A DNA stretch of 50,440 nt from Chthoniobacteraceae bacterium (GTDB lineage Bacteria; Verrucomicrobiota; Verrucomicrobiia; Chthoniobacterales; Chthoniobacteraceae): positions 1-50,440 of the forward strand of contig CANIWM010000044.1 of NCBI GenBank assembly GCA_947471505.1, written 5' to 3'. A program made the translations under genes and the position numbers. This document shows, piece by piece, positions 21,171-49,990 of the stretch. Position 1 is the first letter of the stretch. Every line of letters begins with the position of its first letter. The notes under the pieces were generated by a model. It was not told where the DNA came from. It did not search any database and worked only from the letters and a program-made list of their open reading frames with translations.

Positions 21171-22455
<1,285 letters not shown>

Positions 22456-23384: not shown

Positions 23385-23567
23385 GGGTGTGATTAAAAGT
23401 GGAATAAGCGATGGAGTCGCAATGGTAGCGGGGCCGTCTCGGCCCCGAGCGCCAAAGGCGCTTGCGTAGAGCGCCACTGCGTGTCGTGCCGGGGCCGGGA
23501 CGGCCCCGCTACTTTCGCGTCTTCGCTCGACGAGGCCCATTCCGGCATTCCACTTCTAATCACACCC
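23385..23567. mobile_element. MITE-like element with terminal and subterminal inverted repeats
   Basis: The ends are inverted copies: GGGTGTGATTAAAAGTGG at 23385-23402 continuing AAT, and the complement at 23547-23567, with one mismatch in 21 bp. Just inside, GGTAGCGGGGCCGTCTCGG (starting 23424) pairs with the arm ending 23513 over about 24 bp with one mismatch inside the arm. A third hairpin, AGCGCC-AAA-GGCGCT, is at 23448-23462. The element is 183 bp and has no coding capacity, as expected for a non-autonomous element moved by a transposase encoded elsewhere. I could not find a clear target duplication. It fills most of the gap between two divergent genes. Confidence 0.75.
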
Positions 23568-37140: not shown

Positions 37141-40100
37141 TTATGCCTGCTTGCGGCGGCGTCCGGCGAGCATGGCGAGTCCACCGAGGAGCAACGCTGC
37201 GCTGCCGGGCTCTGGAACCACATACGTGACTGTGACGTCGTTGTTGTTCGTTCCGCCCGCGTAGCTGATTGCGAATTCGTGCGCATCGACGAGGAAGTGT
37301 GCACCTTCCGTCAGGGGGGTTCCTGCGAAGCTAAATGCGAATCCACCGGTCACCGAATCGGAGGCGTCGTTCGAAACCAGTGTGAATACATCCGCCGGCG
37401 TCGGCTGGAACCCGACCGTTAGCGTGAATGGGACGTTTGAATTCAAGCTCACGGCTCCTACCACCGAGAGTTGGTCATACCCGGTGCCAGCCGTGAGTCC
37501 GTTGAGATCAAATGCAGCGCTTGCACCATTGAAGGTAAGCCCGCCATTCATCGATAGCTGTCCGGCGGTCGTGCCGATCACATCGCCTGGCTTCACTGTG
37601 CCGCCGCCAAGGGTCGTAAGACCGGCGATTAGCCCTCCGTTTCCGGAAAGGACACCGCTGCTCAGACTGACGGAGCCGGAGAGAGAGCCCGACAGGATAA
37701 ATGTGCCGCCGTTGATTCCCGTATCGCCAGTGTAGGTGTTGACCGCAGAGTTGGAAACGACGCCATCCGTAATCGAGGCGCTGATCTGGCCGGCACCGTC
37801 GCTCATGCCCGTCGTGGCGACGTTGATCACTCCGCCACTGAAGGTAACGAGCTTGTTCCCCGCATTGGCCGAACTGATTCCGCCAGTGATGTTGAGGGCA
37901 TTTGTCAACGTCGTCGCGGCCTGCGTGACGGTCAGATTCTGATTGGTGCTGATTGCTCCAGAGATGGTAGAAGTCTCATCGGCAGCACCACCAATGCTGT
38001 AGGATCCGGTTGTGGCTTGGTTGGCGATGGTGATTGGGCGAGCGATGGTGACTGCTCCACCGGTGAAGAGACCGACGCTGGAGTTGTTTGTCGTCGTCGC
38101 GGCATCGCCGAGGACGATGGCGCTAGCGGCATTTCCGAAGGCTCCGTTGGCACTGACAGGCGCGTTGGTGGCGGCGATGAGCGTGCCGGCGCTGATCGTG
38201 GTTGCGCCGGTGTAGGTATTCGGGTTGACCACGGTGATTGCGCCACTCCCCGCTTTCAGGAATGTCGCGGGACCGCTGATAACGTTGTTCGCGGTTCCGC
38301 TGAAGGATTGCTCCATCACGATCGCTTGGCTAGACGCAGCAGTGGTCACGATGCCGCCAACGAGGCTACTGGTGGTGCCTCGGAGAGTGACGGCGTTCGC
38401 GTTTCCGAATGTCGTGCCGCCCGCGTAGGTATTCACACCGACGTTCGCATTCGTCGGATCGCCGAAGGTAATTACGTTGCCCGCATTGGCTGTAATGGTC
38501 ACCGATCCCTGACCGGAGATGTTCCCAGTATAGGTGCCACTCGTGGTTTGTGCGAAGGTTACGTTACTGACGGGTGCGGATGCCGGCGCACCGTTGTCCA
38601 CGGCTCCCGAGATGATGATATTGCCCTGCGGGCCGGTGCTCGTGGTCAGGTCGCCTTGGAAGACCGTCGTCGTGCCGCTATAGTTGTTGTTCGTGGCGCT
38701 CAGCATGAGACGGTTGAGATTTGTTTTCACCAAACCGCCGCTGCCAGTGACTTGCCCTGCGATGATGCTATTGCCGGTCGCCGTGTCGATCGTGCCGAAC
38801 GAATTGGGGTGCAGCGTCACCGTGCGAGTTGCGGCAAGCGTTGTGGCGGCGTTGAGGACTAGGGTGCCTCCACCGAAGTTTATACCCGCGTTGACGTTGC
38901 CGAGAGCGGTGTCTGCGCTGACTACCAACCGGCCATTGATGGTTGTGACGCCAGTGTAGGTGTTCGCGCCGGTGAGCGTGAGGCTGCCCCCGGTAAGTTG
39001 GCCCAGATTGTTGGTGTTGATGTTGTTGGTGCCACTTACGGTAATGCCGTTCGAACCAGTGATCGCGACGCCGATGGTGGCACCGGCGGTGTTGGTGACG
39101 ATGATATTGCCTTCGGTCGTACCGAAGTTGATGCCATTTCCAGCAAGTCCCGATGCAATCGTGATGGCTGACTGTGTTCCATTGGTCGCGGTCAAGAGAA
39201 GCAGGCCTGCGCCACCGCTGAAATTAAGCACGTTGGTGTCCAAGGTCAGGGTCTGCGCTGTGGGCGACGAGTTATCCAAGGTGTAAGAATTGAGCAGAGT
39301 GTTGACGGTAGCCGGTCCAGTTGTCGTCGTTGCTCCACCGATGGAGCTACGGGTATTGCCATTCGCCACAGCGGCCGTCAGTTGCGTGATCTCGGTGGTT
39401 GTGTTGATAGGCCGGATGCCGTTAGTGGCATCATAGGTCACCGGCATGTAGGTCGGCGGGTTGGTCCCCGGATTCGACGCACCGACTGCGTAAGGCAGAA
39501 TGCTGATTGTTGAGGTCGCTGCCGCGCCACCGCCGCCCGTAAGGGTGGGGACCGTGGTGAATTTGACGAGGCTGGAGTTCGTGGCGGCTCCGCCGAGGCT
39601 CGTTCCTTGGAATTGAACGGTCGCCCGATTGTTGCGCACGAGGCTACCGCCGGTGAGCAATCCGGTGAAGCCAGCACCGGGTGTGTTCTGAAGGATGATC
39701 CGGTTCCATCCGGAATCTGCGGCAATGACCCCCAACGTTTCACCGCTGTTGGCCGTGGTGCTGGTGAGCAGGTTCAAACTACCCGCCCGCAGGGTAAGCG
39801 GTGCCGCCGTCGTAGCGTTGATACGCCCAGTGTTCACAGTGGCGCTGTCGTCTATGGTCAACTGTGCCTGATTTACCACGACTCCCGTCGAGCCGGAAAG
39901 CCTGCCCTGACCGTTAAGGGTTACAAAGAGCGGGTTGATGACATTCTGAGAGGCTAAGCCGCCGGTCAACGTTGTCGTGCCTGCGGCGGTGTTGTTCGCA
40001 TTCAGCGTTGCGCTGCCAAAGACCGGATACATTCCTTGGTCGAACTGGGTCGAACGGAAGGCCAGATTGCCAGTTCCAGTGATGGCTCCGGCAACGGTCA

Positions 40101-42789
40101 GCGCTGCACCTTGCACGCCAACGGCTTGCGCCTGGCCCGAGCCATTGGTGCGTGCGCCGCCGAAGAGATCGAACGTGAGCGTCGAGCCGCCGTTGAGCGC
40201 GACGCCGTTGGTGCCACCCAGCGTCTGGGTCAAATTTGATGGCACGACTTCGATCAGCGCGCTCTGCGAGACGGTGATCGCGTTATTGAAGGTCGCGTTG
40301 CCTTGCTTGCTGTCGAGCAACAGGCCGCCACCGTTGAGCCGCACCTGTGCACCGCTCAGCGGATTCGCTCCGCCCACGTAGCCTTGGGCCACAAGTTTTC
40401 CTCCCTGCACTTCGATGATCGTTCCGGCAGCGAGGTTTGAAGCGAGGCCACTCTGGGCGAAGTTCGTGTTATCGAGCACGAGCCGTCCGGCACCCTGCTT
40501 TACGATGGTCGTGGATGTTCCGCCGTCTGAGACCTGCCCGAGCGCAAGGTCCGCCGTCGTATTGAAGGTCACCGTGCCGCCGCTGACCACGGTGCCCGCA
40601 GCACGCGCCAGCTTTCCGGCATCACCCGTGACATTGAGCGTGCTGGACGCAGGCGCCGTAAGTGTCCCGAGTTGCACACCGGTGAAATTGCCACCGCTGA
40701 GGTTCAAAGTCGCGCTGCCGCTGACCGAGACGTTGGTGCCAGCATTGACGAGCGATGATGAGCCCGTGCTCGTCACGCTCTCCGCAGTAAAGATATTCGC
40801 TGCGGGGATAAACGCCTTGGCGACGCCAGGGCCCTGCCAATACAGGCTGGCGTCATCGCCACCCGTGCCCTGACCGTATTCGAATCGAATGTCGTGCAGA
40901 CCGGCGGTAAGCATCACGGAATTGCTCGCGCCAAACGTGCCCTTTCCAGCCTCATTGTTGACCACGAACACGCCGTCGATAAATACTCGTGTTCCGTCAT
41001 CCGAGCGAGGCGTGAATGACCAAGGCCCTGCGACATCGATCTTGAGCTTGCCGGTGAACTGCGCACCAAAGTTGTTGACGACGCCATTCGGGAAAAACGG
41101 AGCGGTGCCTCCAGTGACGGGCGTAGTACCTCCGGTAAAGAACGTTCCAGTAAAGATCGACGTCTGGCCGTAGAAGTTGTTAGCAGTTTGGCCGCCACTG
41201 GCGAGCCCGCCGATCACAATGCGCCCGGTGAGGCCGGCGGTGCTGGTGTTCGCTGTTCCATCCAGTCGCAGGGTGGTGCCGTTAGCAAGGCTCACCGAAC
41301 CACTGCCGAGGCTGTTGGTGGTAGAGGTCACATTGGCGCGGACGGTGCCGGCGTTGACGGCAATCGCACCGCCGAAGGTGTTGTTGCCGGTGAGTCGGAG
41401 GAGGCCCGTGCCGTTCTTGCTCAGGCCGCCAGCGAGCGCACCTCCGATGTCGTTCGCTATCGAGTAATCGTTACCGGCGCCACTGTTGGTCACCGTGATG
41501 GCCTGCGGGGTGCGGGCTCCGCCGACAATGGTCTTCACCAAGCCTGCGTTATTAAAGACGACCTGATCGCCCTCGCTGTAAGTAGGCCAGTTGCTCGTCG
41601 CCGTATCCCAAGTGCCGTTGACGCTGCCGTTCCAAGTTTTCGTCGGGTTTACCGACTGAACGACGAGGTCGATCGAGGTGCTCGCTCCGTTGTTTACCAG
41701 ACCGTAGAGGAGACCGCCGCCGGGCGTCGCCCCGATCTTCATGCCTGCCATCTGGTTGGCGGTGATCGCCGTGCCGCTGTAGTCGATGAGCGGATAGGTG
41801 CCCGCGCCAGTGGTGCCGGTGATATTGAAAGTGGTGAGCCCTGCGCTATTGACGCTGGCCGGAGTGGTGAGCGGTGCCGCCCCGGCTGGTGCGCCGAGAT
41901 TGAATGCCGCAGCCGATCCACTGTTGAACTGCAACCCGCCCGTGACCGCGCCCGTCCCAGCAATCGCGCCCGTGTCGTTCACAGCGACGAGTCCAGTGCC
42001 AGTAACATTGACACCCGCACCGCCGCCGAGCGTCAGGGTGCCACCATTGACGACGGTGCCGCCGGTGTAGCTACTGGCAGAGTTGGTGAGCGTCTGATTC
42101 CCAGTTCCCACCTTACCGAAGATGAGGCTGCTGTTAATGGTTCCGTCGAAAGCGGCGGTGCCATTGTCAGCGCCCACGTTCACCTGCGGTAGCACGGTGA
42201 TGTTATTGATAATTTGCGAAGTGACATTGAAGATGCCGTTTACGCTGTTCGTCACCGTGCCGGTGCCCGAGAGCGCACCGACGGTGCCATTAAAGCCGCC
42301 CGCGTTCAGCGTGCCCGCCGCTCCGAGGTTGACCGCACCAGTGACCCGCAAGTCATTGCGGAACGTGGCCGTAGCTGCATTTTGCACGAATTGAATGCTC
42401 CCTGCACTGACGTCGAAGCTTCCGGCAAACGCGGCGCTGTTGTTGCCGATGCCGAGGATGCCGTTGCCAGTCTTGCTGATTGCACCCGTTCCGGTGAGGA
42501 CGGAATTCAATTGAAGACCAACTTGCCCCGGTGCGCCCGCAAAAGTGCCTACGTTGACCGTGTGTGTCCCGGCTGCCAGCGCGAGGTTGCCCTGCAAGAC
42601 GGGGATCGTTGTCGCTTGGACTAGGTTAGTGGCGGTGATGTTGCCCGTCAGCGTGAGTGTGCCGGTCCCGGTTGAAACGCTGGAACCTTGGTTGCTGTTA
42701 CTGCCGCCGTCTGCCGCAAACACGAGGTTCGCCAGCGTGTTTGAGTTATTATTGAGGTTTAGCGCGGTGCCGCCGTTGGACCCATACAA
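37141..42789 (-). pseudogene. Giant autotransporter-repeat PEP-CTERM protein, 5' end missing
   Basis: About 1880 residues without a convincing start: the first possible codon is TTG 42789 (LYGSNGGTALNLNNN), and no ATG with a signal peptide precedes it. The body is made of autotransporter-associated beta-strand repeats (TLTLTGNITATN, LTGANTYTGVTTINGRLVVS, NPNTYTGATTISAGTLIAA). A PA14 domain sits at about 40780-41110 (WSFTPRSDDGTRVFIDGVFV, LHDIRFEYGQG). The C-terminus has the PEP-CTERM signal VPEPGSAALLLGGLAMLAG with RRRKQA, which directs sorting and anchoring by an exosortase system. Upstream of 42789 the frame runs into the 21-bp repeat array. The gene was probably cut when the neighbouring island was inserted, so export is doubtful. 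A distant or unrecognised start cannot be ruled out. Confidence 0.75.
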
Positions 42790-42863
42790 CCACCCGCGCC
42801 CCCGCTCCTTTGCACGGAAGGCAAAATCCCCCCACCCCGAGCCACAAGCCCCACCGCCCCAAA

Positions 42864-43199
42864 ATGCACCCCCACCACCCCGTCATGCAGCCGAACGCCC
42901 GCGTCATGCAGAGCGACAGCCCGAAAATGCACCGCGCCACCCCGACAATGCACCCCGACAGGAGCGCCAATCACCCCAGCAGCCCGGCCATGCAGCTTGA
43001 CAGACTGGAAATGCAGCCTGCCAGACGCCCAATGCAGCCCGCCAGACGCGAAATGCAGCGCGATACCCGCATCATTCATCCGATAAGACCCGTCATGCAG
43101 CACGCCAGACGGGTAATGCAGGCATCGAGAAACGGCAGGCACCACTACAGGCAGCGCACGCATCACCCGCAGACACCGCATATCGGCACCGTGCGGGCC
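42864..43199. repeat. Array of sixteen degenerate 21-bp tandem repeats
   Basis: Units start at 42864 and every 21 bases to 43179. Typical units are ATGCAGCCCGCCAGACGCGAA at 43032 (21 bases shown only as a pattern: ATGCA, then GCCAGACGC, then three variable bases), with ATGCAG or ATGCAC heading eleven of the units. The last three units are diverged. No stop codon interrupts a plus-strand frame (M-H/Q at every seventh residue) or a minus-strand frame (L-H at every seventh). The array lies between the truncated giant gene and the restriction locus. Because there are no unique spacers it is not CRISPR. Whether it is translated is unknown; bases 42790-42863 hold nothing else I recognise. Confidence 0.8.
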
Positions 43200-43262: not shown

Positions 43263-43493
43263 ATGGCACGCGGACCTTCAGGCAGACTCGTTATCGAAAT
43301 GGACCCCATTCTCAAGCGCGACCTTCACTCCGCACTCGCGGCGGATGGAATCACGCTCAAAGACTGGTTTCTCAAGCACGTCTCCGAGTATGTCGCAGAC
43401 CGCCGCCGACTCAACATCGTACAATACTCCGCAGACCTCGACGAGCCCTCCGCCCGCGTTGCAGAAGAACCATCCGAAAATCCACAACCATGA
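43263..43493 (+). CDS. Ribbon-helix-helix-like small protein
   Basis: A 76-residue protein from ATG 43263 (MARGPSGRLVIEMDPILKRD). The opening strand GRLVIEMD, followed by two helices (ILKRDLHSALAADG and TLKDWFLKHVSEYVADRR), matches the MetJ/Arc or ParD/CopG ribbon-helix-helix layout, so it likely binds DNA as a dimer. The acidic C-terminus (DLDEPSARVAEEPSE) is extra. The frame is open for 450 bases upstream through the 21-bp repeats, but the promoter and the RHH start support this ATG. Its last four bases (ATGA) overlap the start of mod, so it probably autoregulates the restriction-modification genes, as control proteins do. Confidence 0.7.
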   Translation: MARGPSGRLVIEMDPILKRDLHSALAADGITLKDWFLKHVSEYVADRRRLNIVQYSADLDEPSARVAEEPSENPQP

Positions 43494-46387
43494 GCACCAC
43501 CACCCACACCGCCGGCCAGAAAGAGCGCCGCTTTCTCGATGCCCTGCGCGATCTCTTTGTCGGCGCAAAAGTGGACGGCCAGTCCGGCTATATCAATCTC
43601 ATGCGCATCAAGGCTGGCTACTTCGAGCACGCCGTCCACCCCGCCCTCATGCGCGACATTGACGACGCCCTCACCGCCTTCCCCCTCTTTCGCGAAGAGC
43701 TGTTCGACAAGCTCCACGCCTTCTTCTCCCGCTATTTCAGCAAATCCGGCTCCATCTGCTTTGCCTACACCCCGCAGCACATGAGCGTCTATGAGCGCGT
43801 CTATACGGACGAGCAGGATGTCGTCCTCTTTTGGAAGACGCACATGCTCTACTACGTAAAGACCGACCGCCTCTTCCGCGACCTCTCCGTGGAAGTGGAC
43901 GGGCGCAAGTTCTTCTTCGACTGCACCGCCCTCACCCACAAAAAGGCCAACGAAAAACGCGAACTCGTCTTCGCCTTGGACAAGGTGGAGGGCGAAGGCA
44001 CCATCCGCCTCGTCGTCTCCTACTCCGAGCGGGGCAAGATCACCAAGACCGACGACATCCTCAAAGCCCTGAAAAAGGCAGGCCATTCCGTAAAAGAAGC
44101 CACGTTCGACAAGGCCACCCGCGTCTTTGCCCGCCAGAGCGAGGTGGACTTCTTCATCAATAAGGACGCACGCGGCTTCCTCTCCGAGCAGCTCGACCTT
44201 TGGATGTTTCAATACCTCTTCAAAGACGAGACGCAGTGGAACGAAAAGCGCATCCAGCAGCTCCAGACCATCAAGAGCATCGCCCAAAAGGTCATTGCCT
44301 TCATCGCCCAGTTTGAGGACGAACTCGTGCGCGTCTGGAACAAGCCCAAATTTGTCCGAGGCACCCACTACATCATCACCCTCGACCGCATCGCCGCCCG
44401 CGAAGGTGGCACCGCGCTCATCGCGGACTTCCTCAAACACGAAGGGATGAAAGTGCAGATCACCGAGTGGCAGGAGCTTGGGATTGTGGCCGAGGGCTTC
44501 GATGCGCGCTCGATTTTGAATGACGAAAGCAAGAAAGCAGGAAAAGGCGTCGCGAAGGAAAAGACCAGCCCCGGTGCTTCCCTTCCTGCCTTCCTGCCTT
44601 CCTCATTGAATCCCGCTTGGCGCTCGCTGCCATTCGATACCCTGCACTTCAAATCGTTGGAACTGCGCCTGCTCGCACTGTTCGACGACCTCGACAACCA
44701 GCTCGATGGCCGCCTCATCAAGAGCGAGAACTATCAGGCGCTCAACACGCTCAAGGACAAGTTTAAGGGGCGGGTGAAGTGCTGCTATATCGACCCGCCG
44801 TATAATACTGGCAGCGATGGCTTCGTATATAACGACACCTTCCGACATTCATCGTGGATCAGTATGATGCAGGACCGGATTTCCGCTGCCGTGCCTCTGC
44901 TCGCGAACAAGGGAGTGATGTATGCCAGCATTGACGACAAGGAGCGTCGCCATTTGGAGTTTGCTCTGGATCAGGCTTTTGGACGCGACAATCGCGTGGA
45001 GGAAATCATCTGGGTGCAGAATACGACGAAGAACCAGTCGCCGACCTATTCTACGAATCATGAATATGTGGAAGTGTATGCCCGCGACTTGAAGGCTGTT
45101 TCGGCGGATGCGCGAATTTTCCGTGAGCCAAAACCCGGCTACGCTGAGGTGATGGAGCTGATCGAAAAGCTCAACCCTCAGTATCCCGCTATCGCGGACG
45201 TAGAAGCGGCCATTGCCGAGCTTTTTGAGACACATAAGATGGAGTTCAAGGACGAGCTGGAGGAGATGGGCGTCGAATACGACAAGAATCTCGATCTCTG
45301 GAAGGGGCTCTACAACTACGGCAACGCGGAGTATCGCGACGCGGATGGGAAACTGATTGCGGAGAAAGACGCGGCGAAGAAAGCGGCCGCGCTATGGATT
45401 TGAAAGGAAGCCGACCCGTCAATGCCTGCTGGCAAGCAGTCGGAAACTACGCGCGATCCTATAGACCCGAATTTCCGGTTCTACAAACCCACACACCCAA
45501 AAACTGATCGGGAGTGCAAGCATCCGAAACGTGGATGGTCTTGGCCGCTAAAGCAGGACAAGAGCCAACCAGAACGGGGCAGCTTTGAGACATTGGATAA
45601 GGACCATCGGATTGTCTGGGGATTGAACGAGAAGAAAACCCCGCAACTGAAGAAGTTTTTGCACGAGGTAGATACTCAGGTGTCGAAGTCGGTTGTGATG
45701 GATTACACCGACGGCGAGAAGCAACTCACCGAACTCATCGGAACCACAAACAGCTTTCCGAACCCCAAGCCCACCACCCTCATTTCGCGCTTCATCCTAC
45801 AGACGGCTGATGAAGGGGAATGGGTGATGGACTTTACCGGAGGCTCGGGCACGACGGCCCACGCAGTAGCAGAGGCATTTCACACCGACCGAGTCCGCCG
45901 CAAATTCTTCCTCGTGGAAGCCGCTGATTATTTCGACACGACTCTAGTGCCTCGCGTGAAGCGGGTATTTGCCGCAACAAGCTGGAAGAAAGGCAAGCCA
46001 GTCGCACTGAACGGCCCCGGCCTGTTCTGCAAAGTCAGCACCCTCGAACAATACGAAGAGGCAATCTCCAGCGCCGTCTATCAAGACGAAGCGCCGGACT
46101 TCTTCCGCAACACGAAGACGAACCCTTACGCCCGCTACGTGTTCTTCCGCGATATGAAGCAGGCGCGTGCGCTGGAGCTGGATTACGTGCGGGATGAAGT
46201 GAACGTCCACCTCAACCGGCTCTACCCGGATATCGACCTCGCCGAGACGCTCTCGTGCGTGACCGGGAAATGGATCAAACGCATCACCGCAGAGGAAGTG
46301 GAGTTTGCCGACGGCAGCAAACAAAGCCTCACGAAGCCCGACTGGGAACTCATCAAGCCCCTCATCTTCTGGGGGCCGGTCGTATGA
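43490..46387 (+). pseudogene. mod: Type III DNA methyltransferase (Mod), split by an in-frame UGA
   Basis: A 966-codon frame interrupted only by TGA at 45401-45403 (codon 638). The N-terminal 340 residues are an extension found in a large subset of these enzymes (GQSGYINLMRIKAGYFEH, VLFWKTHMLYYVKTDRLFRD). Motif IV, DPPYNTG, starts at Asp435, and motif I, DFTGGSGTTAHAV, at Asp781. That order is the beta class of adenine N6 methyltransferases used by type III systems. The stop separates the two motifs. The flanking residues LWI and KEADPSMPAGKQ are colinear with what I recall of homologues, where the position is Trp (TGG). Downstream, AAGGAAG (45404-45410) and ATG 45422 could restart a 321-residue second half. 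Residues 345-373 derive from an inserted palindromic repeat. Active, split or dead cannot be decided here. Confidence 0.85.
44516..44610. mobile_element. Palindromic repeat copy inserted in frame in mod
   Basis: The left arm TTGAATGACGAAAGCAAGAA (from 44516) and the right arm ending CTTCCTCATTGAA (44610) are imperfect inverted copies of about 30 bp. The 95-bp insert is translated as part of Mod: NDESKKAGKGVAKEKTSPGA, then SLPAFLPSSLNP. The flanking Mod residues (VAEGFDARSIL before, AWRSLPFDTLHFKSLE after) read as typical of the family, while the insert is low in complexity. Related to copies at 46385 and 46496. Confidence 0.85.
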
Positions 46388-46477
46388 ATGAGGAAAGCAA
46401 GAAAGCAGGAATGAGGGGAGTGAAGAAGGAGGGGGGCTTTGCTAAAGCCCTTCCTGCCTTCCTGCCTTCCTCATTCA
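46385..46477. mobile_element. Palindromic repeat copy between mod and the GxxExxY gene
   Basis: TGAATGAGGAAAGCAAGAAA (46385 onward, continuing GCAGGAA) and its near-complement ending TTCCTCATTCA (46477) bound a 93-bp palindrome. A central hairpin, GGGCTTT-GCT-AAAGCCC (46435-46451), completes a cruciform. The first three bases are the mod stop codon. ATG 46384 overlaps it and opens a 34-codon frame to 46488 (MNEESKKAGMRGVKKEGGFA ... LPAFLPSSFKKR), which is homologous to the peptide inserted in Mod. I regard that frame as a property of the element, not a gene. Confidence 0.85.
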
Positions 46478-46494
46478 AAAAACGCTGAAGCATT

Positions 46495-46923
46495 ATGAAT
46501 GAGGAAAGCAAGAAAGCAGGAAGTTTGGAGTTGGAAGCACTCAGCGGACGGGTGATCGGCTGCGCGATAGTTGTCCACCGTGAACTCGGGCCGGGTTTTT
46601 TGGAAAACATTTACGAGAATGCGCTGCGAATCGAACTTCGGCACGCTGGGATTCCGTTTCGGTATCAAGAAGATATGCCTGTCATGTATCGGGGTGAACA
46701 AGCGGGGCTTCAGCGTTTCGACCTACTCGTGTGCGATCAATTGCTCGTAGAACTCAAGGCCATCAAAGCACTTGAGGATATTCATTTTGCTCAAGCGCGT
46801 AGCTACATGAAATCGCTCCGTCTCAAGCACGGCATCTTATTCAATTTCGCCACGATGCCGCTCACCGTGAAGCGTGTCATCTACCGGGAAAACGCGCCCG
46901 ACGCCGGTTTCCTGATTTCCTGA
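46495..46923 (+). CDS. GxxExxY family protein (PD-(D/E)XK nuclease fold)
   Basis: A 142-residue protein. The family motif is GFLENIYENAL (G-x-x-E-x-x-Y), preceded by VIGCAIVVHRELGPG. The nuclease-fold core FDLLVCDQLLVELKAIKAL holds the Asp and the E-x-K expected of PD-(D/E)XK enzymes, so metal-dependent cleavage of nucleic acid is possible though not shown for the family to my knowledge. The first nine residues (MNEESKKAG) are encoded by the left palindrome arm, and the stop codon lies within the right arm. It sits between mod and res, 13 bases before res, but is more likely cargo or motor of the palindromic element than a restriction subunit. Confidence 0.85.
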   Translation: MNEESKKAGSLELEALSGRVIGCAIVVHRELGPGFLENIYENALRIELRHAGIPFRYQEDMPVMYRGEQAGLQRFDLLVCDQLLVELKAIKALEDIHFAQARSYMKSLRLKHGILFNFATMPLTVKRVIYRENAPDAGFLIS

Positions 46924-46934
46924 TTTCCTCATTC
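46496..46934 (+). mobile_element. Long palindrome-bounded element carrying the GxxExxY gene
   Basis: Left arm 46496-46523 (TGAATGAGGAAAGCAAGAAA, then GCAGGAAG) and right arm 46908-46934 (TTTCCTGATTTCCTGATTTC, then CTCATTC) are inverted repeats matching at about 22 of 25 positions. They are the same arms as in the 93- and 95-bp copies. Everything between is the GxxExxY gene. The layout is that of an autonomous element with short derivatives nearby. Target duplications were not clear. Confidence 0.65.
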
Positions 46935-46936
46935 CT

Positions 46937-49900
46937 ATGGCGCTCAAATCACTCGAACATCTCGCGGCCAAGACGCACTTCGACGCGCTGCCTGCCAACT
47001 GGAACAGCTTTGACCTCGCGCGCTTTTCCCCCGCCAAGCGACTGTGGGATTACCAGCAAGCCGGGCTGAAACTCGCGCTGGGCGTCCTCTACAAATACTT
47101 CGAGGACTTCGAAAACTACGAGCCCGGCGAGCGGGAACTACAAAGCAGCAACCGCAAAGAGTGGCTCGCCCGGTGGTACGAAGACGGCATGGTGCTCGCG
47201 CCCAAAGAACGGGAGTCGCTCAATCTCTCCCTGCACAAAGCAAAGCGCCCGCTGCGGGAACTCGTGGGGGAGTTTTACAAAGTGGATGAAGACAAGCCGG
47301 TGATTAACTTTGCCGAGCTGTGCAACCGCATGGGCTTTTGGATGGCGACGGGCAGCGGCAAGACCATTGTGCTCGTGAAGCTGCTGGAAATCCTCCACCT
47401 GCTGATGCGCCGCGAGGAAATCCCCGTATGCGACGTGCTCATGCTCACGCACCGGGAGGATTTGATGGAGCAGTTTGAGCGCACCGTGTGGGAGTATAAC
47501 CACGCGCCGAATTGCCCCGTCCACATCGAGCTACGCGAACTGCGCGAATACCCCGAGGCAAAGCGCGAGACGCCCGGCGGTCTGCTAGGGCGCAACTCCA
47601 CGCTGCGGGTGTTCTTTTACCGCTCGGATAATCTGAGCGATGAGCACAAAGAGCGCATCGTGGACTTTCACAACTACGACAACGGGGGCCGGTGGTACGT
47701 CCTGCTCGACGAGGCGCACAAAGGAGTGGCCGAAGACAGCAAGCGAAAGCACATCTTCAACATCCTGAGTCGCTCGGGCTTTCTGTTTAATTTCTCCGCG
47801 ACCTTCACCGACACGCTGGACCTCGCGACGACGGTGTACAATTTCAACCTCTCGGAGTTTATTTCCCGAGGCTACGGCAAACACATCGCCGTGCTGCGGC
47901 AGGAACTCGCGGCATTTAAGCGCGCGGGCGGCACGGGCGACTATAGCGACGATGAAAAGCGCAAAGTCGTGGTGAAAAGCATGCTGCTGCTCTGCTACAC
48001 CGCGCAAAAAGTCCGCGCCCTGCGCAAAGTGGCTGGGGAGCCGACGCTGTATCATCACCCGATGCTGATGACGCTGGTGAACTCGGTGAATACGGAAGAC
48101 GCGGACCTGAAGCTGTACTTCGAGCAGATCATCGCAATCGGCCGCGGCAATCTGCCGGCAAAAGTCTGGAACGAAGCGCGTGCAGAACTGTGGGAGGAAC
48201 TCAAAGACGAACCAGCATTTCTCTATGAAGACAAACGGGCGGTGCAGATCGCCAAGGAGGAACTGGATGCGCTGACGATGGCGGATGTGCTGCGCGACGT
48301 GTACAACGCGGAAAAGGCGGGAGACATCGAAGTCCTCGTGCGCCCCGGCAACACGAAGGAGCTGGCCTTTAAGCTGAAGACGGCAGCACAGCCGTTTGCG
48401 CTGATCAAAATCGGCGATGTGTCGGGATGGCTGAAGGACAAGCTGACGGGATTTGAGTTTGTGGAGACCCTCAAAGCGGAGAGTTTTTTCGAGACGCTGA
48501 ATGCGCCGGAATCGCCCATCAACATCCTCATGGGCTCGCGCACGTTTTACGAAGGCTGGGACTCGAACCGGCCCAACGTGATCAACTTTGTAAACATCGG
48601 CACGGGTGAGGATGCAAAGAAGTTCATTCTTCAATCCGTAGGGCGGGGAGTCCGGGTGCAGTCATGGCGCGGGGAGCGGCGGCGGTTTGAGGAGCTGTTC
48701 GAGCAATTCGACGACAAGGCAAAGTTTCGCGAGTTGCGTGCGCTCACCGTCGCCCCGGAGACGCTCTATGTGCTGGGGACGAACCGCGAGGCGCTAAATA
48801 CGGTGCTGTCGGAACTGAAAAAGGAGAAGCCAGCGACGCAGGATTTCCTCCGCTTGGACCTGAATCCCAAATCCAAAGACCGGCTGCTGCTGGTGCCCGA
48901 GTATCGAAAGAACGGAAAGCCAATCATCGAAGAACGGGCCCCATCGAAGTTCGAGATTCAGCGGGACGACTTCGCACTTCTGGAGCAATACGACGGAGCA
49001 CTGCCCGACGATAGTCTGCTGCTACTCGCTCACGGTGGCTCGCCGCAAAAGGTGCAATACTTCCGCAAGAGCATGGAGGATTCGGATACTTACTTCACCA
49101 AGCACAGCCTGCGGGAATACCGAAATCTGGAAGTGCTGACGGGACGGGTGATGGATTACTTTGGCCTTCGTGCCGAAGAACTCGACCGCATCCGAACGCT
49201 GGGTGACGGGGACATTATCCACTTCCGGCAGATGTCGGTGGACAAGCCGCACGCGGAGGAAATCCAGCGGAGGGTGGAGCGGGTGCTTTTCTCCGCGACG
49301 CCGGAGGGAAAGATCGCAAAAGAGGAAATCGAGCAACGGTATCATCAGGGCGAGATGGATTTCACGGAAGCAGCGCGGCTGATGGAGGACCAAGGCCTGA
49401 CCGGGCGACAAACCTACGACGCCGAAGCGCTGACCATAGACGCGACCGCATACCTCGCGAACCACTACTACCTGCCTGTGCTCTACACCAAGGGGCAGAA
49501 ACTGGACTACATCCGCCACATCATCGATGAGGATAGCGAGGTTCGTTTCCTGAACGCACTTCGTGAATACGCGAAAAAGCCGGACTCTGTTTTGAGGAAT
49601 TTGGATTGGTGGATGTTCAGCAAGCTCGACCAGTATTTGGACGAACCTTACATCCCTTACTACAACCCAAAGCAAAACCGCGTCGCACGATTCATCCCCG
49701 ACTTTATCTTCTGGGGGCGGAAGGGAGACCAATACACCATTCTCTTCGTGGATCCGAAGGGGATGGAACAACTCGATTGGGAAAGGAAAGTCGATGGATT
49801 CACGCGACTCTTTGAAGACGAGAAAGGGAATGCGAAGATTTCTAATCATGACGACGCACAGGTGGCCGTCCGCCTCGCGCTGTTCAGCCGCGACCGGAAC

Positions 49901-49990
49901 AAATGCCCTGAGGGATCGTATAGACGGTTTTGGTATGATCAGGCAGCGTCGATGTTTGCGGCGGCATTTCCATCGGCTGCTAAAAAGTAA
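46937..49990 (+). CDS. res: Type III restriction enzyme, Res subunit
   Basis: A 1017-residue protein starting at ATG 46937, three bases after the palindrome arm. It has a superfamily 2 helicase/translocase core: Walker A MATGSGKT (136-143), DEAH (258-261, VLLDEAHKG), motif III FNFSATFTDT, and later FYEGWDSNRPNVINFVNIG and ILQSVGRGVRVQ. The C-terminal endonuclease domain shows PD at 921-922 (RFIPDFIFWG) and D-P-K at 939-941 (LFVDPKGMEQ), the PD-(D/E)XK pattern. In type III systems Res works with Mod and cuts DNA beside pairs of unmethylated sites. Res appears intact while Mod is interrupted, an arrangement that is normally tolerated because Res needs Mod to bind DNA. Confidence 0.93.
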   Translation: MALKSLEHLAAKTHFDALPANWNSFDLARFSPAKRLWDYQQAGLKLALGVLYKYFEDFENYEPGERELQSSNRKEWLARWYEDGMVLAPKERESLNLSLHKAKRPLRELVGEFYKVDEDKPVINFAELCNRMGFWMATGSGKTIVLVKLLEILHLLMRREEIPVCDVLMLTHREDLMEQFERTVWEYNHAPNCPVHIELRELREYPEAKRETPGGLLGRNSTLRVFFYRSDNLSDEHKERIVDFHNYDNGGRWYVLLDEAHKGVAEDSKRKHIFNILSRSGFLFNFSATFTDTLDLATTVYNFNLSEFISRGYGKHIAVLRQELAAFKRAGGTGDYSDDEKRKVVVKSMLLLCYTAQKVRALRKVAGEPTLYHHPMLMTLVNSVNTEDADLKLYFEQIIAIGRGNLPAKVWNEARAELWEELKDEPAFLYEDKRAVQIAKEELDALTMADVLRDVYNAEKAGDIEVLVRPGNTKELAFKLKTAAQPFALIKIGDVSGWLKDKLTGFEFVETLKAESFFETLNAPESPINILMGSRTFYEGWDSNRPNVINFVNIGTGEDAKKFILQSVGRGVRVQSWRGERRRFEELFEQFDDKAKFRELRALTVAPETLYVLGTNREALNTVLSELKKEKPATQDFLRLDLNPKSKDRLLLVPEYRKNGKPIIEERAPSKFEIQRDDFALLEQYDGALPDDSLLLLAHGGSPQKVQYFRKSMEDSDTYFTKHSLREYRNLEVLTGRVMDYFGLRAEELDRIRTLGDGDIIHFRQMSVDKPHAEEIQRRVERVLFSATPEGKIAKEEIEQRYHQGEMDFTEAARLMEDQGLTGRQTYDAEALTIDATAYLANHYYLPVLYTKGQKLDYIRHIIDEDSEVRFLNALREYAKKPDSVLRNLDWWMFSKLDQYLDEPYIPYYNPKQNRVARFIPDFIFWGRKGDQYTILFVDPKGMEQLDWERKVDGFTRLFEDEKGNAKISNHDDAQVAVRLALFSRDRNKCPEGSYRRFWYDQAASMFAAAFPSAAKK

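Follow-up and report, generated by a model that had tools for sequence, protein, structure and literature searches.

Why should a small gene of the GxxExxY family, annotated but to our knowledge without a known role, lie between the two genes of a type III restriction operon, framed by inverted repeats that recur close by as short palindromes? The question is raised by the stretch of DNA analysed here, the window, which comprises 50,440 nucleotides (nt) of contig CANIWM010000044.1 from a Chthoniobacteraceae bacterium (assembly GCA_947471505.1). The best explanation of the locus is that one palindromic insertion element is present here in triplicate, two copies being gene-less and one having the GxxExxY gene in its loop, located in or behind mod, the methyltransferase gene of the operon, and ahead of its restriction partner res.

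The first gene-less palindrome lies within mod (44514-44610), in frame, with partly decayed arms at 44514-44543 and 44583-44610. The second, at the mod end (46385-46477), has 27-nt arms (46385-46411 and 46451-46477) that are 89% complementary around a 39-nt loop, and it opens with the TGA that ends mod. In the third copy both arms enclose the GxxExxY gene (46495-46923, plus strand), which encodes 142 amino acids (aa) with a predicted PD-(D/E)XK fold. The left arm (46494-46522, plus strand) contains the start codon of the gene (46495), and the right arm (46909-46937, minus strand) overlaps the end of the open reading frame (ORF) and touches the start codon of res (46937); these arms are 29 nt long, 86% complementary and have 386 nt in between. 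The initial annotation had described three sets of arms with the same sequence and its complement. All three pairs are present, but the match is looser than that: two copies carry the left arm TGAATGAGGAAAGCAAGAAA unchanged and the mod-internal copy carries it with one mismatch, and the right arms are variants of TTCCTGNN repeated three times, 3 mismatches off in two copies, representing a related word set rather than an exact complement. The mod-internal arms have diverged, the repeat finder pairing each with arms of the other copies and never with each other. Folded as single-stranded DNA, the mod-stop copy is far better than its 200 shuffles (0/200 as good; z -4.73), and the mod-internal copy does not stand out in this way (z -1.19; 22/200).

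An orthologous operon in another genome (G315) is without all of these palindromes. Its mod is intact, with an open frame of 954 aa and 73% aa identity over query residues 10-637, res follows (111/168 residues identical in the part compared), and both the mod-internal palindrome and the complete insert between mod and res (46385-46936 in the window) are absent, leaving 7 nt from stop to start. Because this orthologous operon lacks all three, the palindromes are, as judged from sequence comparison, very probably insertions; for the same reason, the arms as ordinary mod or res coding sequence, shared by all orthologues, were rejected. The empty site within mod is the weaker evidence, since it coincides with a methyltransferase linker whose length varies among homologs. 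A search of 39 other family genomes did not recover the operon.

Empty sites were also recovered elsewhere. The genome of the window contains four more GxxExxY loci above the curated cut-off, one with two fused domains. At the site of an element between ureB and ureC (genes named, as are gltB and gltD, from the flanking sequence), the segments in G028 and G031 are 1 nt apart, and the genome of the window has 502 nt more. At the gltB-gltD junction, a short spacer stands instead of the element in G026, G029 and G028, a different small hairpin and no GxxExxY element is found in G031 (96-97% identical) and G025, and a GxxExxY element is present in G033 and G032. A gene-less palindrome downstream of dnaA (L328), itself flanked by a short hairpin, has no clean empty site in the relatives compared, since the next gene differs there. 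A tblastn search with the window protein as the one query (E up to 1e-5) matched 2 of 50,697 phage entries, both from a single virus, and 8 of 72,556 plasmid entries, and gave therefore no near-identical empty sites from these sources. Thus, the empty orthologous sites that the initial annotation had proposed to look for exist at mod-res, ureB-ureC and gltB-gltD, and its idea of short gene-less palindromes next to a long GxxExxY-bearing version of one family, as a non-autonomous and autonomous pair, fits the locus.

Arms around GxxExxY genes

GxxExxY is common in the material studied, with profile matches in 28/40 family genomes and a gene in 228/387 genomes of the phylum sample. For the analysis of flanks we assembled 144 loci, the best-scoring search matches rather than a random draw (34 from the family, 80 named, 30 from the phylum). 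The 80 named loci are among the matches listed for the peptide pattern GPGLLE[ST][VTA]Y in 84,980 species genomes; 14 phyla are represented in those listed, and owing to the use of this pattern they favour one clade. Arms were scored by the best inverted repeat formed between the two 300-nt flanks of the gene. Two entries had been left out before the test, L011 (the second domain of the L008 gene) and L012 (below the cut-off), and four of the 144 loci were dropped for short flanks (L021, L115, L128 and L151).

A score of at least 13 was reached by 115/140 GxxExxY loci, as compared to 8/288 neighbouring non-overlapping ORFs, which were picked mechanically and are not all genes, and 0/700 shuffles. 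At a threshold of at least 12 the numbers are 122, 13 and 7, respectively. L008 was scored as a miss, yet same-sequence hairpins flank both sides of its two-domain gene. By reading, all five above-cut-off loci in the genome of the window have inverted arms, each with another word. The arms and the enclosed gene almost certainly form one element unit. Most GxxExxY genes examined sit inside a short palindromic element, of which many gene-less copies exist as well; this suggests mobile DNA of a type that is widespread yet has drawn little notice, and whose sole protein resembles a DNA-cutting enzyme. Fusions were observed as well: L008/L011 (G000:C66:32508-33269) joins two GxxExxY domains in one frame, with flanking hairpins of another word type, and G004:C40 and G032:C186 likewise have two GxxExxY matches in one long frame.

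GxxExxY copies occupy co-directional gene junctions such as mod-res, ureB-ureC, gltB-gltD, pheS-pheT and fabD-fabG. Both neighbours are co-directional at 81/130 GxxExxY loci versus 51/92 controls, and a distinctive co-directionality of the element with its neighbours was accordingly rejected.

The arms follow a grammar rather than a fixed sequence. Each repeats a word of 6-8 nt about three times, at a period of 8-10 nt, and the word differs between elements (for example CACAGAG, CACGAAG, CGCAAAG, CACCAAG, CACGGAT, CGCAGAT, CAGGAA and CAGGAT). Words were read only where a looser inverted-repeat score reached at least 13, that is at 127 GxxExxY and 24 S23 loci. In the 254 GxxExxY arms, the first recurrence of a 5-mer falls at 8 nt in 398 cases, at 9 nt in 499, at 10 nt in 125 and at 7 nt in 2, and recurrences at all distances number 1328 versus 140 in shuffled arms. 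S23-type four-helix-bundle genes (TIGR02436), present in 30/40 family genomes, have a comparable arrangement: 30 loci were fetched and, with the weak matches L245-L247 excluded, 27 were tested (L218-L244), 23 of which have inverted arms. In their 48 arms, 5-mers recur at 7 nt in 287 cases, at 8 nt in 21 and at 9 nt in 1. Since the period is 8-10 nt for GxxExxY and 7 nt for S23, the arm grammar goes with the protein family.

S23 genes are described from intervening sequence (IVS) elements, in which a single small ORF lies in an inverted-repeat stem loop of about 430 nt; these elements are said to replace a hairpin tetraloop, are regarded as selfish, and mobility driven by the ORF has already been hypothesised (PMC4990558). 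Compared with the IVS elements as described there, the window element is alike in enclosing one small ORF between inverted arms. It differs in that the ORF encodes a GxxExxY protein, a predicted PD-(D/E)XK nuclease and not an S23 four-helix bundle, in its position between mod and res rather than in 23S rRNA, in arms of iterated words at a period of 8-10 nt, and in its abundant gene-less copies.

On a protein tree of the 119 rows with a listed word (8 loci without one excluded), 54 word changes are needed versus at least 66 in 200 shuffles, and cross-phylum pairs with at least 70% protein identity have the same word in 21/28 cases; we conclude that arm words drift fast. At the pheS-pheT junction (named by reading), four genomes have an element in the same place with four different arm words, the arms matching within each. 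Across 18 locus pairs, arms taken as the best inverted pair per locus, a choice that itself favours left-right identity, have a mean left-right identity within loci of 0.93 and 0.91 and of 0.80 between loci; 6 of these 18 pairs come from four loci and one pair is without recognisable words. Both arms change jointly, which preserves the hairpin and looks like conversion between arms or selection on pairing. In one pair from two phyla (L149/L157), Melioribacter (Ignavibacteriota) and Flavobacterium, similarity extends roughly from arm to arm. In most other element pairs shown, either the arms differ and similarity therefore stops close to the gene boundaries, or it continues into common flanks.

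Gene-less copies are numerous. A single arm pattern gave 2199 matches in the 387 genomes, as compared to 6 for the reversed control, and 2128 of these (97%) are in GxxExxY-positive genomes. Strand counts are balanced in G267 (51/51) and G353 (154/148) and uneven in G291 (65/30). With the gene and arm tables combined by hand, the totals of which agree with the tallies, 140 genomes have both the pattern and the gene, 18 arms only, 88 the gene only and 141 neither. The count covers one pattern and leaves other words uncounted; the genome of the window is thus among the 88, because its arms have other words. Fourteen gene-less palindromes that were read measure 67-181 nt. Similar copies, three in G184 and two in G204, were rejected as independent insertions since they have common flanks. 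The genome of the window has gene-less palindromes with the CGCAGATT arms of its gltB-gltD element on five further contigs, namely C37, C2, C100, C11 and C35.

Some copies adjoin other hairpins. A further inverted repeat (score at least 8) flanks 8/37 gene-less palindromes, where 6% would be expected from cross-pairings and 3% from shuffles, and arms of the window type adjoin arms of other word types at L309, L314, L317 and L318. At L327, L329 and L340, CGCAGATT palindromes were seen inside a recurring outer palindrome, AACCCGAACGCCGC...GCGGCGTTCGGGTT.

The GxxExxY protein and a possible mechanism

The window ORF matches GxxExxY in Pfam (PF13366, E 3.1e-35) and NCBIfam (TIGR04256, E 1.1e-36), with scores above the curated cut-offs (121.5 bits vs 22 and 125.7 vs 35, respectively). 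Nucleases of the RecB/Cas4-like type have the motif D, ExK, QxxxY, and Cas4 proper has in addition four cysteines for an Fe-S cluster. The GxxExxY protein resembles Cas4, RecB, lambda exonuclease and Hjc nucleases in its modelled fold and in the predicted catalytic residues D76, E86, K88, Q100 and Y104; among 51 proteins of one clade the first four are invariant and Y104 is at least 90% conserved. Unlike Cas4 proper, it has no conserved four-cysteine set, merely one nearly invariant cysteine in this clade, and with its 142 aa it is not found beside CRISPR genes in the window or in the contexts read. The structure model is of high confidence (predicted local distance difference test, pLDDT, 93.1; predicted template-modelling score, pTM, 0.85), and its closest structural neighbour among those listed is SSO0001 (VIA Z 9.3), which we take to be a Cas4-family protein. 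Several other folds, including LHK-Exo and the Holliday junction resolvase Hjc, give a VIA Z of about 7, matches that may reflect only a common arrangement. Foldseek gave no match reaching E 0.001, RNA splicing endonucleases also being in its list, a sequence search of the PDB gave nothing useful and one of PHROGs nothing up to E 0.1. The ratio of nonsynonymous to synonymous substitution rates (dN/dS) is 0.02-0.20 in 18/21 pairs and saturated in the other 3; most pairs come close to saturation at their synonymous sites, which makes the values approximate. On the model, the protein has a RecB/Cas4-like PD-(D/E)XK fold, and these ratios place it under purifying selection. The conserved predicted catalytic residues, the fold and the low dN/dS make it probably an active nuclease kept by selection.

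The element class is real and general; how it spreads is less certain. In the mechanism that we propose, GxxExxY, as a small RecB/Cas4-like nuclease, would bind or cut arms of its own type that have folded, as hairpin or cruciform, in DNA. The element ends would then enter junctions between genes or the loops of other hairpins, probably through repair, and gene-less copies would be moved in trans. We find such mobilisation in trans reasonably probable; the chances that the nuclease is the driver of the element are evenly balanced. For the reading as a whole, transposase-free hairpin-forming elements with a GxxExxY nuclease acting on folded arms, we have a slight preference. About equally poised is the broadest version, a transposase-free mobile class of many phyla in which the two unrelated proteins GxxExxY and S23 each have an arm grammar of their own (period 8-10 versus 7), insert into operon junctions and hairpin loops, move gene-less palindromes in trans and alter both arms together. 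If GxxExxY is the enzyme of palindromic elements, then the role of the family, the origin of the short palindromes so common in environmental genomes and the old IVS/S23 problem become one testable question.

Several observations weigh against this proposal. The analysis caught no element in movement. Inspection by eye of the ure and mod-res sites, whose compared flanks share just 78-84% and about 68-72% identity, respectively, revealed no target-site duplication. The initial annotation had suggested a genome search with the arms, and same-genus genomes (G033, G028, G026 and G029) indeed have the window arm type as two-armed gene-less palindromes; within its own genome (6.07 Mb, 153 contigs), however, this type is restricted to the mod-res operon, no other copy being found at up to 3 mismatches (reversed control, 0 matches). 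GxxExxY genes without flanking arms, which the initial annotation had named as contrary evidence, form a minority, with 25/140 loci below the threshold; held-out plasmid loci reach the fixed threshold in 4/8 cases, three of the four below it having weak iterated words. The searched arm pattern is absent from 88/228 GxxExxY-positive and present in 18/159 GxxExxY-negative genomes, an association (odds ratio 12.5) that is uncorrected for phylogeny. The 66 named rows of the protein tree taken alone are indistinguishable from shuffles (34 word changes; mean 37.2, minimum 31), and strict co-evolution of arms and protein was rejected for lack of signal there. A set of 20 more diverse family proteins keeps D and K without exception and E, Q and Y at 90% or more, so strict invariance does not extend to all predicted catalytic residues. 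Finally, copies persist at one site, pheS-pheT, over long divergence. Two ideas of the initial annotation are not upheld: the elements are no single sequence family, as the arm word differs between them and S23 has analogous elements with another period, and mobility alone does not account for the scattered distribution of GxxExxY, since words differ, S23 elements are analogous and elements persist at one site.

Alternatively, GxxExxY and S23 may be passengers or host-useful genes, the palindromes being spread by some other machinery, for example replication slippage, template switching, a reverse transcriptase or an unlinked transposase. Congruent with such an origin, the element unit has no transposase, two unrelated proteins share a similar architecture, the homogeneity of words inside arms resembles slippage or conversion, and 18 genomes have arms without GxxExxY. 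We nevertheless consider it unlikely in view of the arm period being specific to the protein family, the 97% of arm matches in GxxExxY-positive genomes and the conservation of the predicted catalytic residues. The arms may instead act as RNA, as an IVS-like stem-loop in operon transcripts that is processed or protected, with the protein binding the stem and rare spread by recombination. The copies between adjacent co-directional genes, the five junctions named above, are in line with this, as is the joint change of both arms at a conserved site, and RNase III excises S23 IVS elements in 23S rRNA (PMC4990558). The orientation bias of the neighbours is however mild, many gene-less palindromes are dispersed, and the fold is most like DNA nucleases, even with RNA splicing endonucleases in the Foldseek list, rendering this account distinctly improbable.

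Two further explanations are hardly credible. The location between mod and res would agree with GxxExxY serving the type III restriction operon as an accessory, but the orthologous operon is without it, elsewhere the gene is flanked on both sides by genes for urease, glutamate synthase, phenylalanyl-tRNA synthetase or fatty-acid synthesis, and PADLOC has no strong match for the protein (best E 0.0027); with gene contexts this varied, the role was rejected. Similarly, chance or ordinary terminator hairpins beside the gene could be considered, as terminator-like hairpins are common and the dnaA copy L328 is itself flanked by one such short hairpin, yet the 8/288 control ORFs versus 115/140 loci and the 6 reversed-control matches versus 2199 leave little room for it.

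Known repeat systems and other features of the window

Of the described systems, REPIN/RAYT comes close to the proposed arrangement: non-autonomous inverted doublets forming hairpins are tied to a single-gene enzyme (PMC3116915). The window inverted doublet likewise forms a hairpin in its mod-stop copy. The enclosed ORF differs, matching PF13366 only, so no RAYT is present in the unit (no search was aimed at unlinked RAYT genes in the rest of the genome), and genomes have several gene-bearing GxxExxY copies, each with its own arms. REPIN/RAYT tags are reportedly GTAG or CGTC, neither of which the window arms have. Unlike an insertion sequence or a miniature inverted-repeat transposable element, the full copy is without a transposase. 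Rickettsia palindromic elements are palindromes in frame inside ORFs, and cyanobacterial SDR elements are tiny dispersed repeats nested in each other, features that recur in the elements described here; we know of no gene-bearing partner for either.

The TAACTGA heptamer repeats of Beggiatoaceae, cyanobacteria and Bacteroidetes are mostly intergenic, with mobility discussed as one possibility (PMC4679880). GxxExxY-element arms resemble these in iterating short words, mostly between genes. The TAACTGA repeats differ in being direct repeats, with one inverted case in the main genome, and in that no linked protein is identified in the part of the paper available to us; moreover, their period of 7 resembles the S23 type of arm and not the GxxExxY type. 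The literature searched, outside which lie most subscription journals and preprints, contains no description of this element class; in the accessible texts GxxExxY is mentioned in passing, with nothing on mobility, and a search for the arm strings gave unrelated context only.

PADLOC assigns the two host genes to type III restriction components. mod (43490-46387, plus strand), the type III DNA methyltransferase gene that hosts two of the palindromes, has an in-frame TGA at positions 45401-45403, which went unnoticed in the initial annotation and splits the gene into ORFs 43490-45403 and 45422-46387; the G315 ortholog is intact. A frameshift was rejected, as both halves share one frame, and the candidate readings of the stop are a pseudogene, recoding or an assembly error. 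res (46937-49990, plus strand), the restriction subunit gene, follows the gene-bearing element.

Further large inverted repeats of other sequence are present in the window at 23385-23567, 22323-22445 and 1-145, perhaps other palindromic elements; the first consists of two nested pairs, a GGGGCCG-rich pair within GGGTGTGATTAAAAGTGGAAT. Ahead of mod, irregular ATGCAG- and CCAGACG-like word repeats are discernible by eye at 42850-43180, between mod and a giant repetitive ORF of 1882 aa (37141-42789, minus strand), which ends in a putative PEP-CTERM-like tail.

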